64,000 bases of DNA from Bacillus sp. NP157. GTDB taxonomy: Bacteria; Pseudomonadota; Gammaproteobacteria; Xanthomonadales; Rhodanobacteraceae. The DNA is taken from contig CP076546.1 of assembly GCA_018889975.1 (NCBI GenBank), positions 1,240,001-1,304,000 on the forward strand, read 5' to 3'. The translations under genes were made by a program, and so were the position numbers. The notes beneath the pieces were generated by a model that worked only from the letters and a program-made list of their open reading frames with translations, had not been told where the DNA came from and did not search any database. How positions within the stretch are numbered: position 1 is the stretch's first letter; each line of letters starts with the position of its first letter. This document shows positions 41,591-49,881 of this stretch, piece after piece.

Positions 41591-43006
41591 TTAGCGGCGT
41601 CGGCGTCGGCGGCGGAGCAGGGCGAGCACCAGCCAGAACAGCAGCACGACCACCACCACGCCGCCGACCATCAGGTACGGGGTGAGGCGTAGCAACAGCG
41701 GCTTCGGTCCGCCGGAACGGATCGATGCGACGTCGGCGGCGCTGACCGTCACGCCCGGGTTGCCGAAGTGTTGTTCGACATAGGTCGCGACGGCGGCCAC
41801 CTGGGCATCGTCCATGTCGCGCGCGAACGCCGGCATCGACACATGCGCATCCGCACCCCGGCGATCGACGCCATGCAGGATCGCCATCACGAGGTTGTCG
41901 GCGTGCGACAGGCCGACGGCGCGGTTGTGGCTGAGCGACGGGAAGTACTGATCCTGCGTACCACGGCCGTCGGGCTGGTGGCAGCTGGCGCAGGCACCGG
42001 CATACAGCGTCGCGCCGTCGGTATCGTTGGCGAGGCGCAGGGCCGACGGATCCGCGTTGCCATCCACGCGCTGCGGTTCACGCATGCCCAGCGCGGGTAG
42101 CGGCGCACCGCCCTGGTAGTCGTACGCCGGATGCGTATCATCGGCGTCCCGGATCGGCGCCACCGTCTTCAGGTAGCTCGCCATCGCGAACAGGTCGTCG
42201 TCGGACAGGTGGCTGAGGCTTTGCTCGACCGCTTCGGCCATGCCACCCGCGGCCTGGCCCTTGCCCTTCACGTGGCCGTTCTTCAGGTAGCCGGCGAGTT
42301 CTTCCGTGGTCCAGCCGCCGATGCCGCTGACCGGGTCGGAGGTGATGTTCGGTGCGATCCAGCCGTCGATCTTCGCGCCGCCCAGGTAGGCAGCCTGGTC
42401 TTCGGCCATCAGGAAGGTGCGCGGGGAATGGCACGAACTGCAGTGGCCCAGCACGTCGACGAGGTACTGCCCGCGCTTGACCTCGCCCGGCTGCGCTTCG
42501 TGCAGGCCGTTGCCGAGGTAAAGCAGGTTCCACCCGGCCATGGTCCAGCGCATGCCGTAGGGGAAGGGCAGCTTCGTCTCGGGCACGGCGTTGTCGTCGG
42601 CCGGCACGCCGTGCATCACATAGGCGTAGAGCGCGTGGATGTCGTCGTCGGTCATGCCCGCGTAGGCGGTATACGGCATCGCCGGGTACAGGTGGCTGCC
42701 CTTTGCGTTGACGCCCTTGCGCACGGCGTCGGCGAACTGCGCTTCGCTGTACCCGCCGATCCCGTGGCCGGTCGATGGGGTGATGTTGGACGCGTAGATA
42801 TTGCCCATCGGCGAGCCGATCGCCCGGCCGCCCGCCAGCGGATGCGCCGGGCTGGAGGTGTGGCAGGCGGCGCAGTCGGCGGCGGTGGCGACCGCCTTGC
42901 CGCGTGCGATCAGCGCGGCGTCCTGGGCGTGCCCGGGCGTCGCGCAAAGCGTGGCCAGTGCGAGGGCGGCGCCGGGAAACCATCGAAGCATGCGTTGGAT
43001 TCGCAT
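41591..43006 (-). CDS. Membrane-anchored tri-haem cytochrome c, sugar/alcohol dehydrogenase subunit
   Basis: A 471-aa protein with a signal peptide, three CxxCH haem sites (CAACH at 45-49, then CSSCH and CASCH) and a C-terminal membrane helix followed by a poly-Arg tail. This is the cytochrome subunit of membrane FAD dehydrogenases of the gluconate/sorbitol/alcohol type. It passes electrons from the GMC subunit to the quinone pool. Its start overlaps the preceding GMC stop by one base. Confidence 0.92.
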   Translation of the reverse strand: MRIQRMLRWFPGAALALATLCATPGHAQDAALIARGKAVATAADCAACHTSSPAHPLAGGRAIGSPMGNIYASNITPSTGHGIGGYSEAQFADAVRKGVNAKGSHLYPAMPYTAYAGMTDDDIHALYAYVMHGVPADDNAVPETKLPFPYGMRWTMAGWNLLYLGNGLHEAQPGEVKRGQYLVDVLGHCSSCHSPRTFLMAEDQAAYLGGAKIDGWIAPNITSDPVSGIGGWTTEELAGYLKNGHVKGKGQAAGGMAEAVEQSLSHLSDDDLFAMASYLKTVAPIRDADDTHPAYDYQGGAPLPALGMREPQRVDGNADPSALRLANDTDGATLYAGACASCHQPDGRGTQDQYFPSLSHNRAVGLSHADNLVMAILHGVDRRGADAHVSMPAFARDMDDAQVAAVATYVEQHFGNPGVTVSAADVASIRSGGPKPLLLRLTPYLMVGGVVVVVLLFWLVLALLRRRRRRR

Positions 43007-44592
43007 CAGATTTCCTTGTGGATGGTGTCGGCGATGCGGATCGCCAGCGCAACGCCGGTCAGCGTCGGATTGATCACGCCGGAGGCGGGGATGACGCCGG
43101 TGGTCGCGAGGAACAGGTTGTCGTGGTCGTGCGTGCGGCATTCGCCGTTCACCACCGAGTCCTTCGGGTCGCTACCCATGATCACCGTGCCCATGATGTG
43201 GTCGCGGTTCTGCCAGCCCGATTCGTCTTCCACCACTTCGGCGTTGAAGATCTTCGCGAAGCGCGCATAGTCGGCCTTCGCGACGGCCTTGCCGGCCTTC
43301 ACGTAATCGTCCACGTCGTAATGGACGGTCAGCATCGGGATGCCGAGCGCGTCTTTCTTCGCGCTGGGCGTCACCCGGTTGCTGGCCCGGGGCAGCATCT
43401 CGAACACGGTGCCGACGTCGATCCAGCGGGCGGCATCGTGGCGGATGCGCTCGTCCAGCTCGGGACCGACGATGCCTTGCTTGAGCAGGCGCTCGGCCAC
43501 CGTGCGATTGGGCACGGCGTTCGACATCGAGTGCTTCACCGCCGAATGCTGCTTGCGGAAATCGCCATCGCGCCAGTTGAAGATGCCACCCTGCTGGACG
43601 GCCCCGCGACCCGGCCACAGCGGTTCGTCGCCGATCATCAGCAAGCCGATGCCGGTGTGGTCCATGAGGTTGCGGCCGACCTGGTCGGAAGAGTTGGCGA
43701 CCTCGGAGATCAGCAGCAGCTTGGGCGTTTCCAGGCCATGTGCCGCGACGATGAAGTAACGGGCGGTGATCCGCGTATCCGTGCCGTCCGGCTTGCGGTA
43801 GTGCACGGCGACGATCTTGCCGCCCGCGCCCTTTTCCAGCTTGTAGGCGGTGGATTCGGTGAGCAGCTTCACCCCCGCGTTCTCAGCGTGGGTGGCGTGC
43901 ATGTCGCCGCTGTACATCGCCCCGATCGGGCAGACCGGCATGCAGTTGTTGTTGCCGCAGCAGGCCGGGCGGCCATCGTAGGGCCGGGTGACGCGACCGT
44001 TCGGCTCGTGGATGTAGTGGTAGCCCTCGGGGGCGAGGCGCTTGTCCAGCTGCTGGTTCATGTACGTGGTGGCATCGGGCGGCAGCGGATACGGCTGCGA
44101 GCGCGGCGGCCATGCCTTGCCACCCTGGCCGCTCTGGTCTTCCTCGCCGTTGCCGGCGACGCCCAGCGCGTACTCGGCGCGCACGTAGTACGGCTCCAGC
44201 GTGTCGTAGTCGATCGGCCAGTCACGGCCGACGCCGTACAGGGTGTTCAGCCGCATGTCGTTGGGCAGGTAGCGCCAGCAGGCCGCGGCCCAGTGCCAGG
44301 TGGTGCCGCCGACCAGCTTGAGCATGCCGGGGCGGAAATTGAACGAACCGGTGTTCTCGAGGTAATCCGGGTCGTAGGACGTGTGCGCCCACGGCTCGTT
44401 CGGATACGGATCGTTGAAGTTGGCCTTGCGCGACGACGTGCGGAAGTTCTCGACGATCTTCCAGCGCGGGATGCGCGAGCCGGCTTCGAGCATGATGACC
44501 GAATGGCCCTGCTTCGCGAGTTCGAACGCGGCATTGCTGCCAAGCGCGCCCGAGCCGATGACGATGACGTCGGCGTCGTAAGTGATAGTCAT
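43006..44592 (-). CDS. GMC-family FAD-dependent dehydrogenase, catalytic subunit
   Basis: A 528-aa flavoprotein. FAD motif VIVIGSGALGSNAAFE near the N-terminus, VGGTTWHWAAACWR as in bacterial membrane-bound gluconate, glucose or fructose dehydrogenases, and a GMC C-terminal half ending in NPTLTGVALAIRIADTI. The substrate could be a sugar, sugar acid or polyol. It is the second gene of the operon, 19 bp after the small subunit. Confidence 0.92.
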   Translation of the reverse strand: MTITYDADVIVIGSGALGSNAAFELAKQGHSVIMLEAGSRIPRWKIVENFRTSSRKANFNDPYPNEPWAHTSYDPDYLENTGSFNFRPGMLKLVGGTTWHWAAACWRYLPNDMRLNTLYGVGRDWPIDYDTLEPYYVRAEYALGVAGNGEEDQSGQGGKAWPPRSQPYPLPPDATTYMNQQLDKRLAPEGYHYIHEPNGRVTRPYDGRPACCGNNNCMPVCPIGAMYSGDMHATHAENAGVKLLTESTAYKLEKGAGGKIVAVHYRKPDGTDTRITARYFIVAAHGLETPKLLLISEVANSSDQVGRNLMDHTGIGLLMIGDEPLWPGRGAVQQGGIFNWRDGDFRKQHSAVKHSMSNAVPNRTVAERLLKQGIVGPELDERIRHDAARWIDVGTVFEMLPRASNRVTPSAKKDALGIPMLTVHYDVDDYVKAGKAVAKADYARFAKIFNAEVVEDESGWQNRDHIMGTVIMGSDPKDSVVNGECRTHDHDNLFLATTGVIPASGVINPTLTGVALAIRIADTIHKEI

Positions 44593-44611
44593 GGGGATGT
44601 CCTGCGCCGGG

Positions 44612-45193
44612 TCAGTCGCTGGCGATGGTGGTGGGCGCGGCGGCCCAGTAGTCCGTGCCGGCACGGGCGTAGGTCGGGATCACGGTGACGTCGTGCGTGG
44701 GCTCAAACATCAGCGCGCCGGTGTAGGTGATGAAGGCGGTGTCGTCCTTCGCCACCAGCGACTTCGGCTCGCCGGTGTAGCCGAGGTACCAGCCGCTGAC
44801 GATGCTGACCACCAGGGCTTTCATGTCCGGGTCGCGATCGACCGGCGAGTCCTTGAACCTGCGCATGTCGTCGATCCCGGCGGCGTCGAGCGCACGCGCG
44901 AGTGCGGCGATGCGCGCGGGAAAACCGCGGTCGCCCCCGGCGAGGGCGACGAACAGGCGTGCGGAGATGTCCGCAGGGAGGCCGTCGCGACCGGTGAGGC
45001 GGCGACCGAGCGTGAGGAAGGCGTCGAGTTCGGCCGCGCTGGCCTGGGCGGGCGTGGCCGCGTAGGCCATGCGGGACCAGGGGAGCAGGGCGCCTGCGGC
45101 GGCGACCAGGCCGGCGGAAACGAGGATACGACGGCGCGCCGGGTTTTCAGGCATGTCGCCGCCAGGCCCCGTTGTCGCATGGGGAGCATGCAT
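44612..45193 (-). CDS. Small subunit of the FAD dehydrogenase, twin-arginine signal
   Basis: A 193-aa protein of the gluconate 2-dehydrogenase subunit 3/sorbitol dehydrogenase family. The leader ARRRILVSAGLVAAAGALLP has the twin-arginine look and would export the folded, FAD-loaded catalytic subunit. The start at 45193 has aaggaag upstream; 45226 is an alternative. It is first in the operon and 99 bp from the LacI gene. Confidence 0.88.
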   Translation of the reverse strand: MHAPHATTGPGGDMPENPARRRILVSAGLVAAAGALLPWSRMAYAATPAQASAAELDAFLTLGRRLTGRDGLPADISARLFVALAGGDRGFPARIAALARALDAAGIDDMRRFKDSPVDRDPDMKALVVSIVSGWYLGYTGEPKSLVAKDDTAFITYTGALMFEPTHDVTVIPTYARAGTDYWAAAPTTIASD

Positions 45194-45235
45194 GGTGGCT
45201 TCCTTGGAGGGTGGCTGTGGATGCAAAGCCGCCGA

Positions 45236-45296
45236 AGTATAGGAAGCGGTTTTGAGGTAAACCCCTCAAAAAGCCATCTTGATGGTTTTACCTCAA
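45236..45296 (-). promoter_or_regulatory. Promoter and paired LacI operators of the dehydrogenase operon
   Basis: Two 18-bp sites, ttgaggtaaacccctcaa (45252-45269) and ttgatggttttacctcaa (45279-45296), agree at 16 of 18 positions when one is reversed. A tatact -10 box on the minus strand (45236-45241) lies 10 bp below the first site, so that site covers the -35 region. The second operator overlaps the stop codon of lacI. This is the expected binding region of the LacI protein encoded just upstream. Confidence 0.7.
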
Positions 45297-46318
45297 CCGA
45301 CTTCCGGCAGGTTCTCGCGCATGACGATGCTGCTCGGCTGCAGGTGCGGCGCCGGCGTGGCTGAGCGCCCGAAGCGCGCGAGTACATGCTGCAGTGCGCG
45401 CGCGACCTGTGCGGCGAGGTTCTGGTCGAGCACCGCGTCCATCCGCCCCAACTCGAGCAGGCGCCGGTTACTGTCGGTGAGGTCGTGGCCGATGAAGACG
45501 ACGTCGCGCGGGCGGGTCTGTTCGACGAGGACCTGGGCCACGCCTTCGTCGCCCACCGAGGTGTTGTAGATCCCGCGCAGCCCAGGCACGGCGCGCAACA
45601 CGTCACGGGTGATTTCGGCGGTGCTGAGCGGATCCTCGCGGCTGTCGCCGCGGGCGATGATGTGCGCACCGGGAAAGTTTTCGCGCAAGGCGTCGGCAAA
45701 GCCGCGCTCGCGCTGTTCGTGGCTGCGGAAGTGGTGGTAACCCTTGATGACGAGCACCGGACCGCCCTGCGGGCCGAGGAAACGTCCCATCAGCTCGCCG
45801 GCGAGGCGTCCGGCCGCATGGGTGTCCGTGCCGACGTAGGCGATCCGGCCGCTGGAGGGGATGTCCGATGCGAGGGTGACCACGGGGCAGTGGCTGGCGA
45901 CGCGGCGCACCGCCTCGCGAACCACGGGATGGTCGTGGGTGGTGAGCACGAGCGCATCGGCGTGGCGGGCCTGGGCTTCGATCTGTTCGGCGATTTCCCC
46001 GGGCACGATCGATGCGAACGGATGCACCTGGCAGCGCACGCGCAGCTGGTGCATGGCGACCTGGTGGCCCTCGAAGCGGCGCGACAGCTCGTCGTAGAAA
46101 TGGATGGTGGGCGACTGCATCAGGATCGGCACGTTGAGCCAGCGCGCCGGCGGCGTGTCGATCACCCGGTTGAGCTTCAGTCGCTTCGCGGCTTCGAGTA
46201 CCCGGGACTGCACCCGTTCACTGACTCCGCCACGTCCATTGATCACCCGATCGACCGTGGCCGGGCTGACCCGCGCGGCGGCAGCCAGGTCGACGATCCG
46301 GGTTTTTTGCTTGGGCAT
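45293..46318 (-). CDS. LacI family transcriptional regulator
   Basis: A 341-aa LacI protein. The N-terminal helix-turn-helix and hinge helix read TRIVDLAAAARVSPATVDRV and VLEAAKRLKLN. The periplasmic-binding-like sensor domain has VLTTHDHPVVREAVRR and IAYVGTDTHAAGRLAGELM. It precedes the FAD dehydrogenase operon on the same strand, and twin operators lie at its 3' end. The ligand is probably a sugar or polyol. Confidence 0.92.
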   Translation of the reverse strand: MPKQKTRIVDLAAAARVSPATVDRVINGRGGVSERVQSRVLEAAKRLKLNRVIDTPPARWLNVPILMQSPTIHFYDELSRRFEGHQVAMHQLRVRCQVHPFASIVPGEIAEQIEAQARHADALVLTTHDHPVVREAVRRVASHCPVVTLASDIPSSGRIAYVGTDTHAAGRLAGELMGRFLGPQGGPVLVIKGYHHFRSHEQRERGFADALRENFPGAHIIARGDSREDPLSTAEITRDVLRAVPGLRGIYNTSVGDEGVAQVLVEQTRPRDVVFIGHDLTDSNRRLLELGRMDAVLDQNLAAQVARALQHVLARFGRSATPAPHLQPSSIVMRENLPEVG

Positions 46319-46419: not shown

Positions 46420-46448
46420 TTGCATTATTCGTTACCGTAACGAATAAT
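46420..46448 (+). promoter_or_regulatory. Promoter embedded in a 25-bp perfect palindrome, predicted leaderless
   Basis: A perfect inverted repeat at 46424-46448 has 12-bp arms (attattcgttac / gtaacgaataat) around one base. TTGCAT (46420-46425), 17 bp, then AATAAT (46443-46448) forms a promoter whose -10 is the right arm. Transcription would begin at about 46455, which is the A of the next gene's ATG. No ribosome site is present. The palindrome would block the promoter when bound. Confidence 0.7.
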
Positions 46449-46454
46449 AGCCCC

Positions 46455-46793
46455 ATGAAAAAGAACATCAACGCCACCCGCGATCCGAACACGGCCGACA
46501 TGTTTCCCATGGCGAAGCGCAGCCGCGGCCGTCCGCGCAAGCCGGATGCTCTGACCAATGCGCAGCGACAGGCGCGCTACCGCGCGCGACGCAAGGCGAT
46601 GGGCTTCGATAGCCGCGGGATCAACACCGCGGCCGTGCAGCTATTGGCCAGCACGTTCCGTGACCTGATCGAGGCCGACGCGCGGGCAGGGCAGTTGCTG
46701 GATGTGGTGCAGGACGTCGGCCACGCCGATGCCGCCAGCATGGCCCGGCACCTGCGTCAGCTGGTCGAGAAGGCGACGCGTCGTTTTGCGTGA
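46455..46793 (+). CDS. Small basic DNA-binding-like protein with AT-hook-like motif
   Basis: A 112-aa protein starting at 46455. It has the KRSRGRPRKPD AT-hook-like core and a very basic LTNAQRQARYRARRKAMGF helix, followed by an acidic or amphipathic C-terminal helical part (ASTFRDLIEADARAGQLLDV). The basic helix recalls small plasmid or phage regulators. Predicted autoregulation comes from the palindromic promoter directly before it. Family not assigned. Confidence 0.65.
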   Translation: MKKNINATRDPNTADMFPMAKRSRGRPRKPDALTNAQRQARYRARRKAMGFDSRGINTAAVQLLASTFRDLIEADARAGQLLDVVQDVGHADAASMARHLRQLVEKATRRFA

Positions 46794-46812
46794 CGCGTAA
46801 CGGAAATTCGAA

Positions 46813-49800
46813 TCAGTCGAAGCGCGCCTCGAGCACGCGGAACGGATGGTCCACGCGAACGCCGTCCGCGTCCCACGTGGTGGCTGGCTTCCCGTCGACG
46901 ACGACGCTGGCTGGTCGCATGCGTCCCGGCCAGAACACCCGCACAGGCGTACCGGCACGAATGCCCTTGTCGAGCGTCACCCGCAGCACGTCGCCTTCCC
47001 GGCGTGCCGTCATCGTCAGCACGCCGTAGGCGACCGGCAGCTTCGCCACCGCCAGCCCCTTTCCGGCGACCCATGCCGGCGGCGTGCCAGGCAGCAGGTA
47101 CAGGCCATCATCCGCCTCGCGCATCAGCATCCCGAACAGGGTGCGGGCATACTCCGCGCCGATCCACGTATGCGGCATGTCACCCAGGTAGCCCGGGTGA
47201 CGCAGGCGCGAGTGCACCACCTCGGCCCACATGTTCCATTCCGGCGGCCGGCGATCGCGCACGATGGTGCCGAGCAGTTCCGCCGCATCCGCAGGACGGT
47301 CGAGGTAGACGTAGGTCAGGACGTTTCGCAGCTCGTAAGGCGTGTACGCGAACAGCTCGCCAGGCGCCTCGCGCTTGCGCACGTCGGCAAGGTAGCGATC
47401 GAAGGTGCGCACCAGTGCATCGCGTGGCAGCACGTCCATCTGCCCGGCCGGGTCGAGCGCGATCGACACGCTGGTCGGGTCGCCGTCGCCAAGATCGGCC
47501 GCGGCGGGCAGGGTGTCCACGCCCTTCCAGGCCATGGTCGCGCGGATCGATGCGCCGACCGACTCACGCAACGCGGCGTATTGGGCGTGCGCGTAGGCGG
47601 CCAGCTCCCTGTCGCCCCACTGCCCGGCCAGCCACGCGCCGTCATGCCAGCCCTTCAGTGCCCACCAGTCGTCCCAGTAACTATGGGTCGGGCTGGAATA
47701 GCCTTCATGGCTGATCGAGGGCGCGATGATGCCGTGGAAGCGCTGCGCGGCGGGCAGGTCGGCGAGATAGCCCGGGACCATGGTCCGTTCGCGCAGTTCC
47801 TGCATGAAATGCATCGCGGCGCGGACCCTGGGCAGGTAACTGCGGACCGACTCCGGGCCACCGCCGAACCGCGCCACGTCGGCGACGAGGTTGATGAATT
47901 CGCCCTGGCTGTCGTACTCGATATCCGAGCCGAATCCACGGTTGACGCTGCCGTCGGCATTGAGGATTGGCGAGACCAGGCCATTCTCGTGTACCGCATG
48001 GCTGGCGTACCAGTCGAGGTAGTCGCGCGCGGTCTTGACCTCGCCCATGCGCAGCAGGATCGACGCCGTGGCCGCGCCGTCGCGGATGAAGGAACGGTTG
48101 TAGTTGCGTGGGCCGGCCTGCATGGCATGGCCGGTCTGGTTGACCAGCATGTAGGCCGCCTGCGAGCGCAGGATGTCTACCAGTGATTCGTCGGGCAGGG
48201 AGAGGCCGACGCTGCCGAGTCGCTTCTGCCAGGCGTCGGAAACCTTGTCGGCCAGTGCGTCGAAGCGGTCCGCGCGAATGCGGCTGCGATCCAGCGGCGG
48301 CGGCTCGGCCAGCGTGCCATCGGCGTTGGCCGGTGTCGTGCCGAGCGGGAAGGCGAGCACGATGTCCTGGCTTGCGCCCGCCGCGAGGTGTACGTCGTAG
48401 GCCAGTGCCCCGGCCGCGAGGCCCTGGGCATCCTCCGCCTGGCTGGCCGCGGGCAGCCGGCCGGTCGCGATGGCCTGGGTGATCTCCGTCGCGCCGTGGT
48501 CGCCGAACGGCGCGCTGCCCGTGGCATCGGGCTTCGTCAGTGGCACGAACAGCGTACGACCATTCACGGCCACCTTATCGGCGTCGACCGCGATCGCGTG
48601 GATCGGCGACGGGCCACCGTTCTGCCACGGCGGATTGACCTGCATTGGGCGCACGACGAGGAACAGCTTGCCCATCACCGGGGCATCGCCGTGGTTGGTC
48701 AATCGATGCCGGAGCAGGACGACGGGCTGCCCTTGGTCGTCGATCGCGAAGCTCTCACTGCGCACGTCGAGCCCGGACTGTGCCGTCCAGCCCACCGAGG
48801 GCATCGGCTTCCAGCGGTCACGCAGCGCGTGGCTGCGCTCGCTGGCGTCAGCGATGCTGGCCTTGCCGTCGTCGCTGCGCCAGATCGCCTGGACCAGCGG
48901 GCCGCCCTTGAACGGTTCGATGTCGCCGTATTCGTCGAAGATCGCCTTCTGCAAGCCGGCCGGCACGCCGACGTCGGTCCAGTACACCTGCTGCATGTGC
49001 AGCGACGACGGGAACAGCGACGCATTCGCCCGCGAAGCGGCGACCTGGTAGCGCTTCATCGGAGTCATCACCCGCGGCGCGGCCAGGAAGCGCAGTCGCG
49101 CGATCCGTGGCGTCCCGCTGCCGGCGCGGATGGCCAGGCGCAGGTCGCTTGCACTGAAGGTCTGCGCGGCGGCGAGGAATGACGTGGCGCCAAGTGAGCC
49201 GGGGTCGCTGTCGACGACGGACCAGTGGCCTTGCGCATCCTTCGACTGCAGTTCGACACCCTCGCGCGGGCCGGCCCAGGTGACTTCGATGCCGGCGATG
49301 TCGATGGGGTGCGCCATATGGATGTCGACGTTGCGCACGTCGCCCCCGCCCCCGACATCGCGTGGGCCGCCGTCGGCCCACAGCGAGGCGCCGTCGTCCT
49401 TGCCGGCCAAGCCGCGGATGCGTGCGACGTCGGTCGCCGCCATGGGTTCGAACTCGAATACCGAGACGCCCCAGTCGGCGGTGCGCGCCGGTGCGGCCAG
49501 GCGAACATAGCGTGCGTCGGTCGCGGGGAAGACGAGGTATTCCGTGCCGCCCGGCGAGTCGGTCACCGTGTAGACCGGGTGGAACGACGTGCCGTCCGTC
49601 GATACCTGGATCGAATAGGACGCGGCGAAACCGCTGTCCCAGTGGATCCGCACGCCGCCCACGCGCGAGACCTTGCCCAGGTCGACCTGGAACCACTGGC
49701 CCGGGCTGAACGAGCCACCCCAGCGGGTTGTTTCGTCGCCGTCGATCGCGTGCTTCGGCGCGAGGGCCGGCACCTGTTGCGACGAGCTGGTGGCCTGCCA

Positions 49801-49881
49801 GCCGCTGCGCGGAGGCAGGGCGTCGGCAAATGCGGTGGTGGCGAGCAGCGACGTGACGCAAAGGGCGAGGAGCGTGCGCAT
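46813..49881 (-). CDS. Large secreted protein with F5/8-type domain and (alpha/alpha)6 glycosidase-like fold
   Basis: A 1022-aa protein with a signal peptide (MRTLLALCVTSLLATTAFA). A discoidin/F5-8-like carbohydrate-binding domain covers about residues 22-145 (AIDGDETTRWGGSFSPGQWF). The C-terminal half has the hairpin-helical look of six-hairpin glycosidases (YNRSFIRDGAATASILLRMG, WNMWAEVVHSRLRHPGYLGD, DMPHTWIGAEYARTLF). It may act on a surface or plant polysaccharide. I cannot assign a GH family. The neighbouring genes give no substrate clue. Confidence 0.75.
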   Translation of the reverse strand: MRTLLALCVTSLLATTAFADALPPRSGWQATSSSQQVPALAPKHAIDGDETTRWGGSFSPGQWFQVDLGKVSRVGGVRIHWDSGFAASYSIQVSTDGTSFHPVYTVTDSPGGTEYLVFPATDARYVRLAAPARTADWGVSVFEFEPMAATDVARIRGLAGKDDGASLWADGGPRDVGGGGDVRNVDIHMAHPIDIAGIEVTWAGPREGVELQSKDAQGHWSVVDSDPGSLGATSFLAAAQTFSASDLRLAIRAGSGTPRIARLRFLAAPRVMTPMKRYQVAASRANASLFPSSLHMQQVYWTDVGVPAGLQKAIFDEYGDIEPFKGGPLVQAIWRSDDGKASIADASERSHALRDRWKPMPSVGWTAQSGLDVRSESFAIDDQGQPVVLLRHRLTNHGDAPVMGKLFLVVRPMQVNPPWQNGGPSPIHAIAVDADKVAVNGRTLFVPLTKPDATGSAPFGDHGATEITQAIATGRLPAASQAEDAQGLAAGALAYDVHLAAGASQDIVLAFPLGTTPANADGTLAEPPPLDRSRIRADRFDALADKVSDAWQKRLGSVGLSLPDESLVDILRSQAAYMLVNQTGHAMQAGPRNYNRSFIRDGAATASILLRMGEVKTARDYLDWYASHAVHENGLVSPILNADGSVNRGFGSDIEYDSQGEFINLVADVARFGGGPESVRSYLPRVRAAMHFMQELRERTMVPGYLADLPAAQRFHGIIAPSISHEGYSSPTHSYWDDWWALKGWHDGAWLAGQWGDRELAAYAHAQYAALRESVGASIRATMAWKGVDTLPAAADLGDGDPTSVSIALDPAGQMDVLPRDALVRTFDRYLADVRKREAPGELFAYTPYELRNVLTYVYLDRPADAAELLGTIVRDRRPPEWNMWAEVVHSRLRHPGYLGDMPHTWIGAEYARTLFGMLMREADDGLYLLPGTPPAWVAGKGLAVAKLPVAYGVLTMTARREGDVLRVTLDKGIRAGTPVRVFWPGRMRPASVVVDGKPATTWDADGVRVDHPFRVLEARFD

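Follow-up and report, generated by a model that had tools for sequence, protein, structure and literature searches.

In bZIP proteins, a zipper leucine stands at a fixed distance after the arginine of the basic region, both lie in one unbroken helix, and the N-terminus of this helix points away from the dyad of the DNA site. In bZIPs of the GCN4/CREB kind, alanine at the +4 position of the basic region goes with TGAC. The archaeal activator GvpE has been described as bZIP-like, and it acts on another operon and on another site than those considered here. BetI, a further point of comparison, is a TetR-family regulator.

Pap1 reads TTAC with the pattern NxxAQxxFR, formed by Asn86, Ala89, Gln90, Phe93, and Arg94 (PMC7261193). 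From Endozoicomonas, the bZIP genes Nach1/2 have been reported, with a description as homologous to the CNC-bZIP factors of animals (PMC6213907); this is likewise a claim of bacterial bZIPs, and the family described below is not of the CNC-bZIP kind. For BetI of the alphaproteobacterium Ruegeria pomeroyi, the footprinted operator is the perfect palindrome ATTGACG-CGTCAAT (PMC12442346). The RepB-RCR_reg family (PF10723) also comprises small regulators of small replicons, and a phage member of the family described below is so annotated.

In the window, which is the whole stretch of 64,000 nucleotides analysed, ATTATTCGTTACCGTAACGAATAAT forms a palindrome at positions 46424-46448, with perfect 12-bp arms and a single central base, and constitutes a putative 25-bp operator. 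It is composed of the core GTTAC-C-GTAAC (46431-46441) and the A/T-rich flanks ATTATTC and GAATAAT. The preliminary description had reported this palindrome and considered its arm pair improbable by chance, and both points were borne out: it was the longest perfect inverted repeat of the window at a spacer of 0-2 (the runner-up had an arm of 10 bp), and 0.04 repeats with arms of at least 12 bp are expected in 64 kb from base composition. The promoter proposed with it, TTGCAT-17 bp-AATAAT on the plus strand, was also present. The palindrome fills the spacer and the -10 element, overlapping the -35 element TTGCAT (46420..46425) at its left end and ending on the right with the -10 element AATAAT (46443..46448), 6 nt before the ATG at 46455. 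As described before, this ATG opens a frame of 112 codons on the plus strand (46455..46793 including the stop), and no ribosome site was seen by eye in front of it. No RNA-level feature was found by Rfam between positions 45000 and 48000.

The 17-bp core of the palindrome occurred once in the 4,875,246-bp (4.88 Mb) genome (G000), so that no other targets exist at such stringency, and a genome-wide regulon was rejected on this ground. When three mismatches were allowed, three further sites were detected, with equally many matches for a reversed control pattern. The motif CGTTAC-N0-2-GTAACG was likewise present in one copy, located at the 112-aa gene, and its reversed control also in one.

The 112-aa protein was matched in 6 of the 61 genomes searched, the window's own included; the others were two of 22 congeners and three remote genomes. 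The proteins of the two congeners, G002 and G010, were 86% and 84% identical to that of the window. Judging from substitution rates in the three congener pairs (dN/dS of 0.087/0.83, 0.107/0.72, and 0.047/1.04, or approximately 0.05-0.15), purifying selection acts on the protein. Both gene-bearing congeners have retained the palindrome in front of the ATG, at 24 and 25 of its 25 bases, as its earlier interpretation would predict, and the -35 element was represented in the same place by TTGCCT and TTGAAT. Farther upstream, 19 of 70 bases agreed, which corresponds to the random level.

The most probable transcription start is the A of the ATG at 46455, which would make the transcript leaderless, as had been suggested. 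The distance of 6 nt from the -10 element to the ATG was found in all three loci of the genus, and in G010 a stop closes the frame 13 codons 5' of the ATG with no start codon between, so that the ATG is the first in-frame start. Five other loci have a distance of 3-6 nt; across the family, however, the median is 25 nt.

A divergent gene for a LacI-family regulator (45293..46318, minus strand; Pfam LacI, 33.6 bits against a cut-off of 27) starts 105 bp away on the opposite strand, and such regulators bind palindromes. The palindrome could accordingly be the operator of this regulator or of another host factor, with the small gene standing there by chance. The BetI operator also bears on this explanation: its core TGACG-CGTCA resembles the sites of those family members that have alanine at +4, so that more than one family of regulators uses such cores. 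BetI regulates choline genes, unlike the 112-aa protein, and is compared by its operator alone. Another match to the operator string, in the literature text that could be searched, turned out to be a primer and was discarded. Neither the 3.3-kb locus of G002 nor that of G010 gave a match to the LacI-family gene, and both have a gene for an MFS transporter on that side. The palindrome and the 112-aa gene therefore stay together independently of this neighbor, and it is probably not the LacI-family regulator that uses the palindrome. Since the core is present once in the genome, and since bacterial, plasmid, and phage copies of the small gene come with variants of the site that covary with its helix (see below), we regard an operator of the LacI-family regulator or another host factor as very improbable.

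On the other side of the gene, G002 carries the same neighbor as the window (90% identity over 493 residues), and G010 carries the gene that lies one further out in the window (78%). The neighbor shared with G002 (46813-49881, minus strand) encodes a 1022-aa protein with an F5/8 type C domain at its start, which looks glycosidase-like by eye; it is absent from the G010 locus. The minus-strand cluster at 41591-46318 comprises the LacI-family regulator, a small ORF resembling a dehydrogenase subunit, a GMC oxidoreductase, and a cytochrome c protein, and resembles membrane-bound sugar-acid dehydrogenases. The genes on both sides of the 112-aa gene read as metabolic, and this copy is chromosomal.

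The preliminary description had seen an AT-hook-like core and a basic helix in the protein. RGRPRK and the basic helix are both present, and together they make up an N-terminal module of the PHROG 10506 type. The AT-hook-like GRPRK is encoded by codons 25-29 (46527..46541, plus strand), and R24, G25, R26, and P27 were invariant among 28 aligned relatives. The Pfam AT-hook model (PF02178) was not among the Pfam matches of the window protein; the relative L053 reached 17.9 bits with it against a cut-off of 17.4. The proposed recognition helix, NAQRQARYRARRKA, is encoded by codons 35-48 (46557..46598, plus strand) and is numbered here with N35 as 0, R38 as +3, Q39 as +4, Y42 as +7, and R43 as +8. 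A36, R38, and R43 were also invariant in the 28 aligned rows, which were obtained without the search filter on +1 and +8; in the covariation and tree sets, the invariance of alanine at +1 and arginine at +8 is wholly or partly a product of that filter.

Modelled with AF2 (mean pLDDT 76.6, pTM 0.33), the window protein showed a helix at residues 35-48, a break at 49-57, helices at 58-88 and 91-111, and no strand of three or more residues. In a Burkholderiaceae relative, whose model has a pLDDT of 64.5, there is also a break after the basic helix, and in view of these two models the N-terminal module looks like a portable reader attached to varied C-terminal parts. A Foldseek search of the window model against the PDB gave no fold match apart from one meaningless hit, the PDB sequence search gave coiled-coil and designed-protein noise only, and no Pfam or NCBIfam model reached its cut-off in the window protein.

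The basic helix shares its spacing with fungal bZIPs. In NAQRQARYR of the window protein, the asparagine, glutamine, aromatic residue, and arginine occupy the same positions (0, +4, +7, +8) as in Pap1/Yap proteins, and the half site is likewise TTAC. Several relatives carry exactly the Pap1/Yap site TTACGTAA or the CRE-like TGACGTCA, and members with alanine at +4 have TGAC, many of them in the form TGACGTCA. The window protein also shows the spacing N-x7-R of a bZIP basic region, from N35 to R43, with the aromatic Y42 in the place where an aromatic residue, serine, or cysteine precedes the arginine. Unlike in Pap1/Yap proteins, +3 is arginine, position 0 varies (asparagine was found there in only 7 of 34 unique pairs, those of the RQ type, and other residues elsewhere in the family), the half sites lie 0-2 bp apart, and the modelled helix breaks at 49-57 without continuing into a zipper. 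Residue 53, ten after R43, is a serine, where the zipper rule calls for leucine, and the helix ends at 48 with the next beginning at 58. With the Pfam bZIP profile, the window protein gave no match, and the best relative (L074) reached 13.5 bits against a cut-off of 27.6. Membership of the window protein in the bZIPs was therefore rejected on zipper spacing and profile scores; convergence is likelier than descent, and homology is not claimed.

The window protein matched PHROGs 10506, 9651, 6334, and 23279 (best E 2.2e-11, PHROG 10506), for which no function is recorded in the PHROG library used. All 10 further members tested matched at least three of these four, over stretches that include the N-terminal module. 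Among 5.8 billion proteins, 25 matches were obtained, the window's own included, which comprised a single close cluster, a set of 83-86 aa in length in which the name Dyella was frequent, and a set of 153-191 aa in which some carried the name Paraburkholderia. Along the lineage of the window, matches were found in 41 of 233 genomes of its family, 35 of 299 of its order, 11 of 369 of its class, and 27 of 398 of its phylum; in the family to which the genome G315 belongs, 13 of 249 genomes had one. DNA loci were collected from 36 named genome contigs, 14 virus contigs, and plasmids, with 13, 17, 6, and 17 further loci from virus contigs. Searching phage or plasmid records by tblastn with the window protein returned nothing, and so did scanning virus contigs with the Aeromonas plasmid protein; relatives used as tblastn queries did find phage and plasmid members. 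These matches point to an undescribed family spanning the order of the window, the Burkholderiaceae, small plasmids, and filamentous phages. No paper on the family was found in a literature set of titles and abstract openings, from which subscription journals were mostly absent.

In many members of the family, GTNAC-(0-2 bp)-GTN'AC lies between the -35 and -10 elements with A/T-rich flanks. The pattern GT[TAG]A[CT]-N0-2-[GA]T[ATC]AC, which was composed after these upstream regions had been viewed, occurred in 39 of 60 non-redundant 100-bp upstreams. For comparison, it occurred in 12 of 1440 windows taken from these loci, and a complement-pattern control occurred in 2 of the 60. In these 39 upstreams, the -10 element was TAAAAT in 25, with the same offset from the core as AATAAT in the window, the spacer was 17 in 31, and the -35 element started with TTG in 23; the elements were chosen as best fits, so that these counts lean upward. 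Across 92 operators, the left flank (-6 to -2) was 91.5% A/T versus 49.9% farther upstream, and the right flank was also A/T-rich, though it overlaps the -10 element. The gap between the half sites was 0, 1, and 2 bp in 41, 12, and 41 of 94 calls. Plain inverted-repeat scoring separated the upstreams weakly (mean 7.2 of 9; other windows 6.6, shuffles 6.4), and the specific pattern was adopted for this reason.

Genome-wide, CGTTAC-N0-2-GTAACG was present in 22 of 28 genomes and records. In many of those bacterial genomes the reversed control was as frequent or commoner, which indicates that the site is not enriched genome-wide and that its location is what counts. Among 10 virus records, the motif was found in 9 and the control in none. 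Both copies in G309, the one copy in G310, and both copies in the 7.1-kb virus record G318 are located at the family gene. Other arrangements were also observed. The upstreams of L043 and L044 contain other repeat arrays (GTGAAC/GTTCAC and TAGTTGAGTTCAACTAG), suggesting that operators have diverged beyond GTNAC. In L254 and L258-L260, from virus contigs and with asparagine at 0 and glutamine at +4, GTTACGTTAC precedes the -10 element as a direct rather than inverted repeat, and the modules L060 and L061, which like L043 and L044 gave no operator call, are located where no promoter was seen. Copies of CGTTACATGTAACG near 2.90 Mb of G002 were considered as operators and set aside, as they look like repeated DNA; the locus there (L272, 2903800-2909600) has CGTTACATGTAACG three times within approximately 4 kb and is apparently unrelated to the family.

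The conserved repeat might instead be a replication or mobility site of the iteron kind, and not a transcriptional operator. Relatives on plasmids and in filamentous phages have replication genes nearby; on the L053 contig, a Zot-domain gene precedes the family member and a G2P-type replication gene follows it, as in filamentous phages. Several family upstreams also contain two or three tandem copies of the site. The metabolic flanks of the window copy and the constant position of the family site between the -35 and -10 elements speak against such a role, which we consider most unlikely.

To relate the protein to its site, we let a script blind to the protein assign the middle base of GTNAC, with the GT.AC frame and a -10-like hexamer as requirements. 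From 144 distinct modules, 94 calls were obtained, 80 symmetric and 14 asymmetric; the other 50 gave none, a few of these being chance frames. Sorted by the residues at +3 and +4, symmetric calls were T in 33 and C in 7 for RQ, G in 26 and T in 1 for RA, A in 9 and T in 1 for RM, A in 2 for KQ, and G in 1 for HS. The single T in RM is a register miscall (L075), and a further error of the caller concerned L037, where the site lies within the coding sequence. L203 is an exception, with alanine at +4 yet T in the operator, and has phenylalanine at +7; the seven RQ calls with C are exceptions as well. All six unique helices with C have tyrosine at +7 and five of them have glycine at 0; their sources are plasmids (Aeromonas, Citrobacter, an uncultured bacterium) and one Paraburkholderia. 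The Aeromonas plasmid locus L269 was considered as a single-residue case (phenylalanine for tyrosine at +7, T for C); it carries both site types and was therefore not used as proof.

In two trees with the contact positions masked, +4 changed at least seven or at least six times. Pairs of alanine or serine versus G went the expected way in 2 of 2 and 1 of 1 cases; for glutamine versus T in the first tree, 0.8 pairs on average agreed and 1.1 were without difference, and for glutamine versus T or C in the second, 0.9 agreed and 0.1 were without difference. Only 1-2 independent pairs per tree lay on well-supported branches, which leaves the test underpowered: a sign test cannot reach significance with this number, and relatedness is thus a serious caveat on the shuffle counts that follow. 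Over 34 unique helix/base pairs, mutual information exceeded shuffles by 0.69 bits at +4 and 0.62 bits at 0 (reached by 0 of 5000 shuffles each), 0.29 at +7 (8 of 5000), 0.16 at +5 (126), 0.13 at +6 (353), and 0.12 at +3 (59), with nothing at -1 and +2. Of the positions at which bZIPs read DNA, covariation was hence strongest at +4, 0, and +7 and weak at +3, with the tree test underpowered as stated.

This covariation supports, by comparison of sequences, the view that the encoded protein reads the site. Since N of the operator covaries with helix positions 0, +4, and +7, where bZIP basic regions read DNA, the protein very probably binds the palindrome at 46424-46448. Alternatively, the contact with the site might be made by a ribbon-helix-helix strand, as known from RepB/CopB-type replication regulators, and the basic helix would then be just an arm. 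Some relatives have a strand-like stretch, VTVELP or VTVTIN, behind the helix, and the relative from the filamentous phage Pseudomonas phage 42-1 (Tubulavirales) is annotated as "replication regulatory protein RepB"; L060 scored 12.2 bits with PF10723, which is under the cut-off of 21 bits, and the window protein gave no match to it. The operator base tracks helix positions 0, +4, and +7 among members with unlike C-terminal parts, and the window model shows helices and no strand behind position 48. We therefore judge binding through a ribbon-helix-helix strand unlikely.

A second, imperfect operator-like site, GTGACGCGTAAC at 46790..46801, overlaps the stop codon and is followed by GGAAAT. The half site gtaacggaaat reported previously at 46797 is present, although it is the right half of this longer inverted site and does not stand alone. 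A related ATAACGCGTAACGAAAAT was found at the stop codon in G002, and the site is missing in G010. Similar sequences occur inside genes. In V-T-[EKND] stretches, counted in the loci of the named genome contigs and the 14 virus contigs, valine was encoded by GTA in 65 of 77 cases versus 67 of 531 elsewhere in the same stop-to-stop frames, and threonine by ACG in 66 of 77 versus 164 of 391. Many of these stretches spell CGTTACNGTAACG and then NAAA, so that the DNA, beyond the protein, seems to be kept, and Burkholderiaceae relatives seem to retain operator-like sequence within the coding region. In L045 and L062, four in-frame VTE/VTK repeats directly before GRPRK were observed, each spelling a half site like GTAACGGAAA, GTTACGGAAA, or GTTACGAAAA.

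Considering these results together, we propose with good confidence that the 112-aa protein is an autogenous regulator, one that would bind DNA and be devoted to the control of its own gene. The autoregulation put forward in the preliminary description gains support from the covariation of helix and operator and from the position of the operator. In the presumed dimer, each subunit would insert its basic helix, with N35, Q39, Y42, and R43, into the major groove at one of the two GTTAC half sites. With a helix oriented as in bZIPs, the GRPRK tail would come to lie over the outer flanks, which are indeed A/T-rich, and probably contacts the minor groove there. The bound dimer would cover the spacer and the -10 element of its own promoter, which is of the sigma-70 type, and thereby shut off its own transcription and keep the protein level low. 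The palindrome most likely serves the protein to repress its own gene, a use preferred over other effects of binding because the operator lies between the -35 and -10 elements, where it may block RNA polymerase; the effect could also be activation, or both. Transcription would begin at the A of the ATG at 46455, the site over the stop codon may function as an auxiliary operator, and extra sites may help via looping or as a road-block. The position of phage and plasmid members near replication genes suggests that there the same autoregulatory circuit may set the copy number.

A wider interpretation is offered tentatively, as a serious possibility somewhat short of an even chance. The family would be an undescribed one with its own evolved code of the bZIP type, in which helix positions 0, +3, +4, and +7 choose the base of GTNAC: N/Q would give T, alanine G, methionine or lysine plus glutamine A, and glycine plus glutamine plus tyrosine C. 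Unrelated dimer modules would allow gaps of 0, 1, or 2 bp between the half sites, the gene itself would be almost the only target, and Burkholderiaceae members would have extra operators within the gene. If this interpretation is true, bacteria and phages possess, on a different scaffold, a recognition code known from eukaryotic bZIPs, with natural variants for all four bases that would make it testable with small proteins and short oligonucleotides; the conserved operator-like sequence within coding regions would be explained, and a mechanism would be provided for four phage protein families of unknown function.
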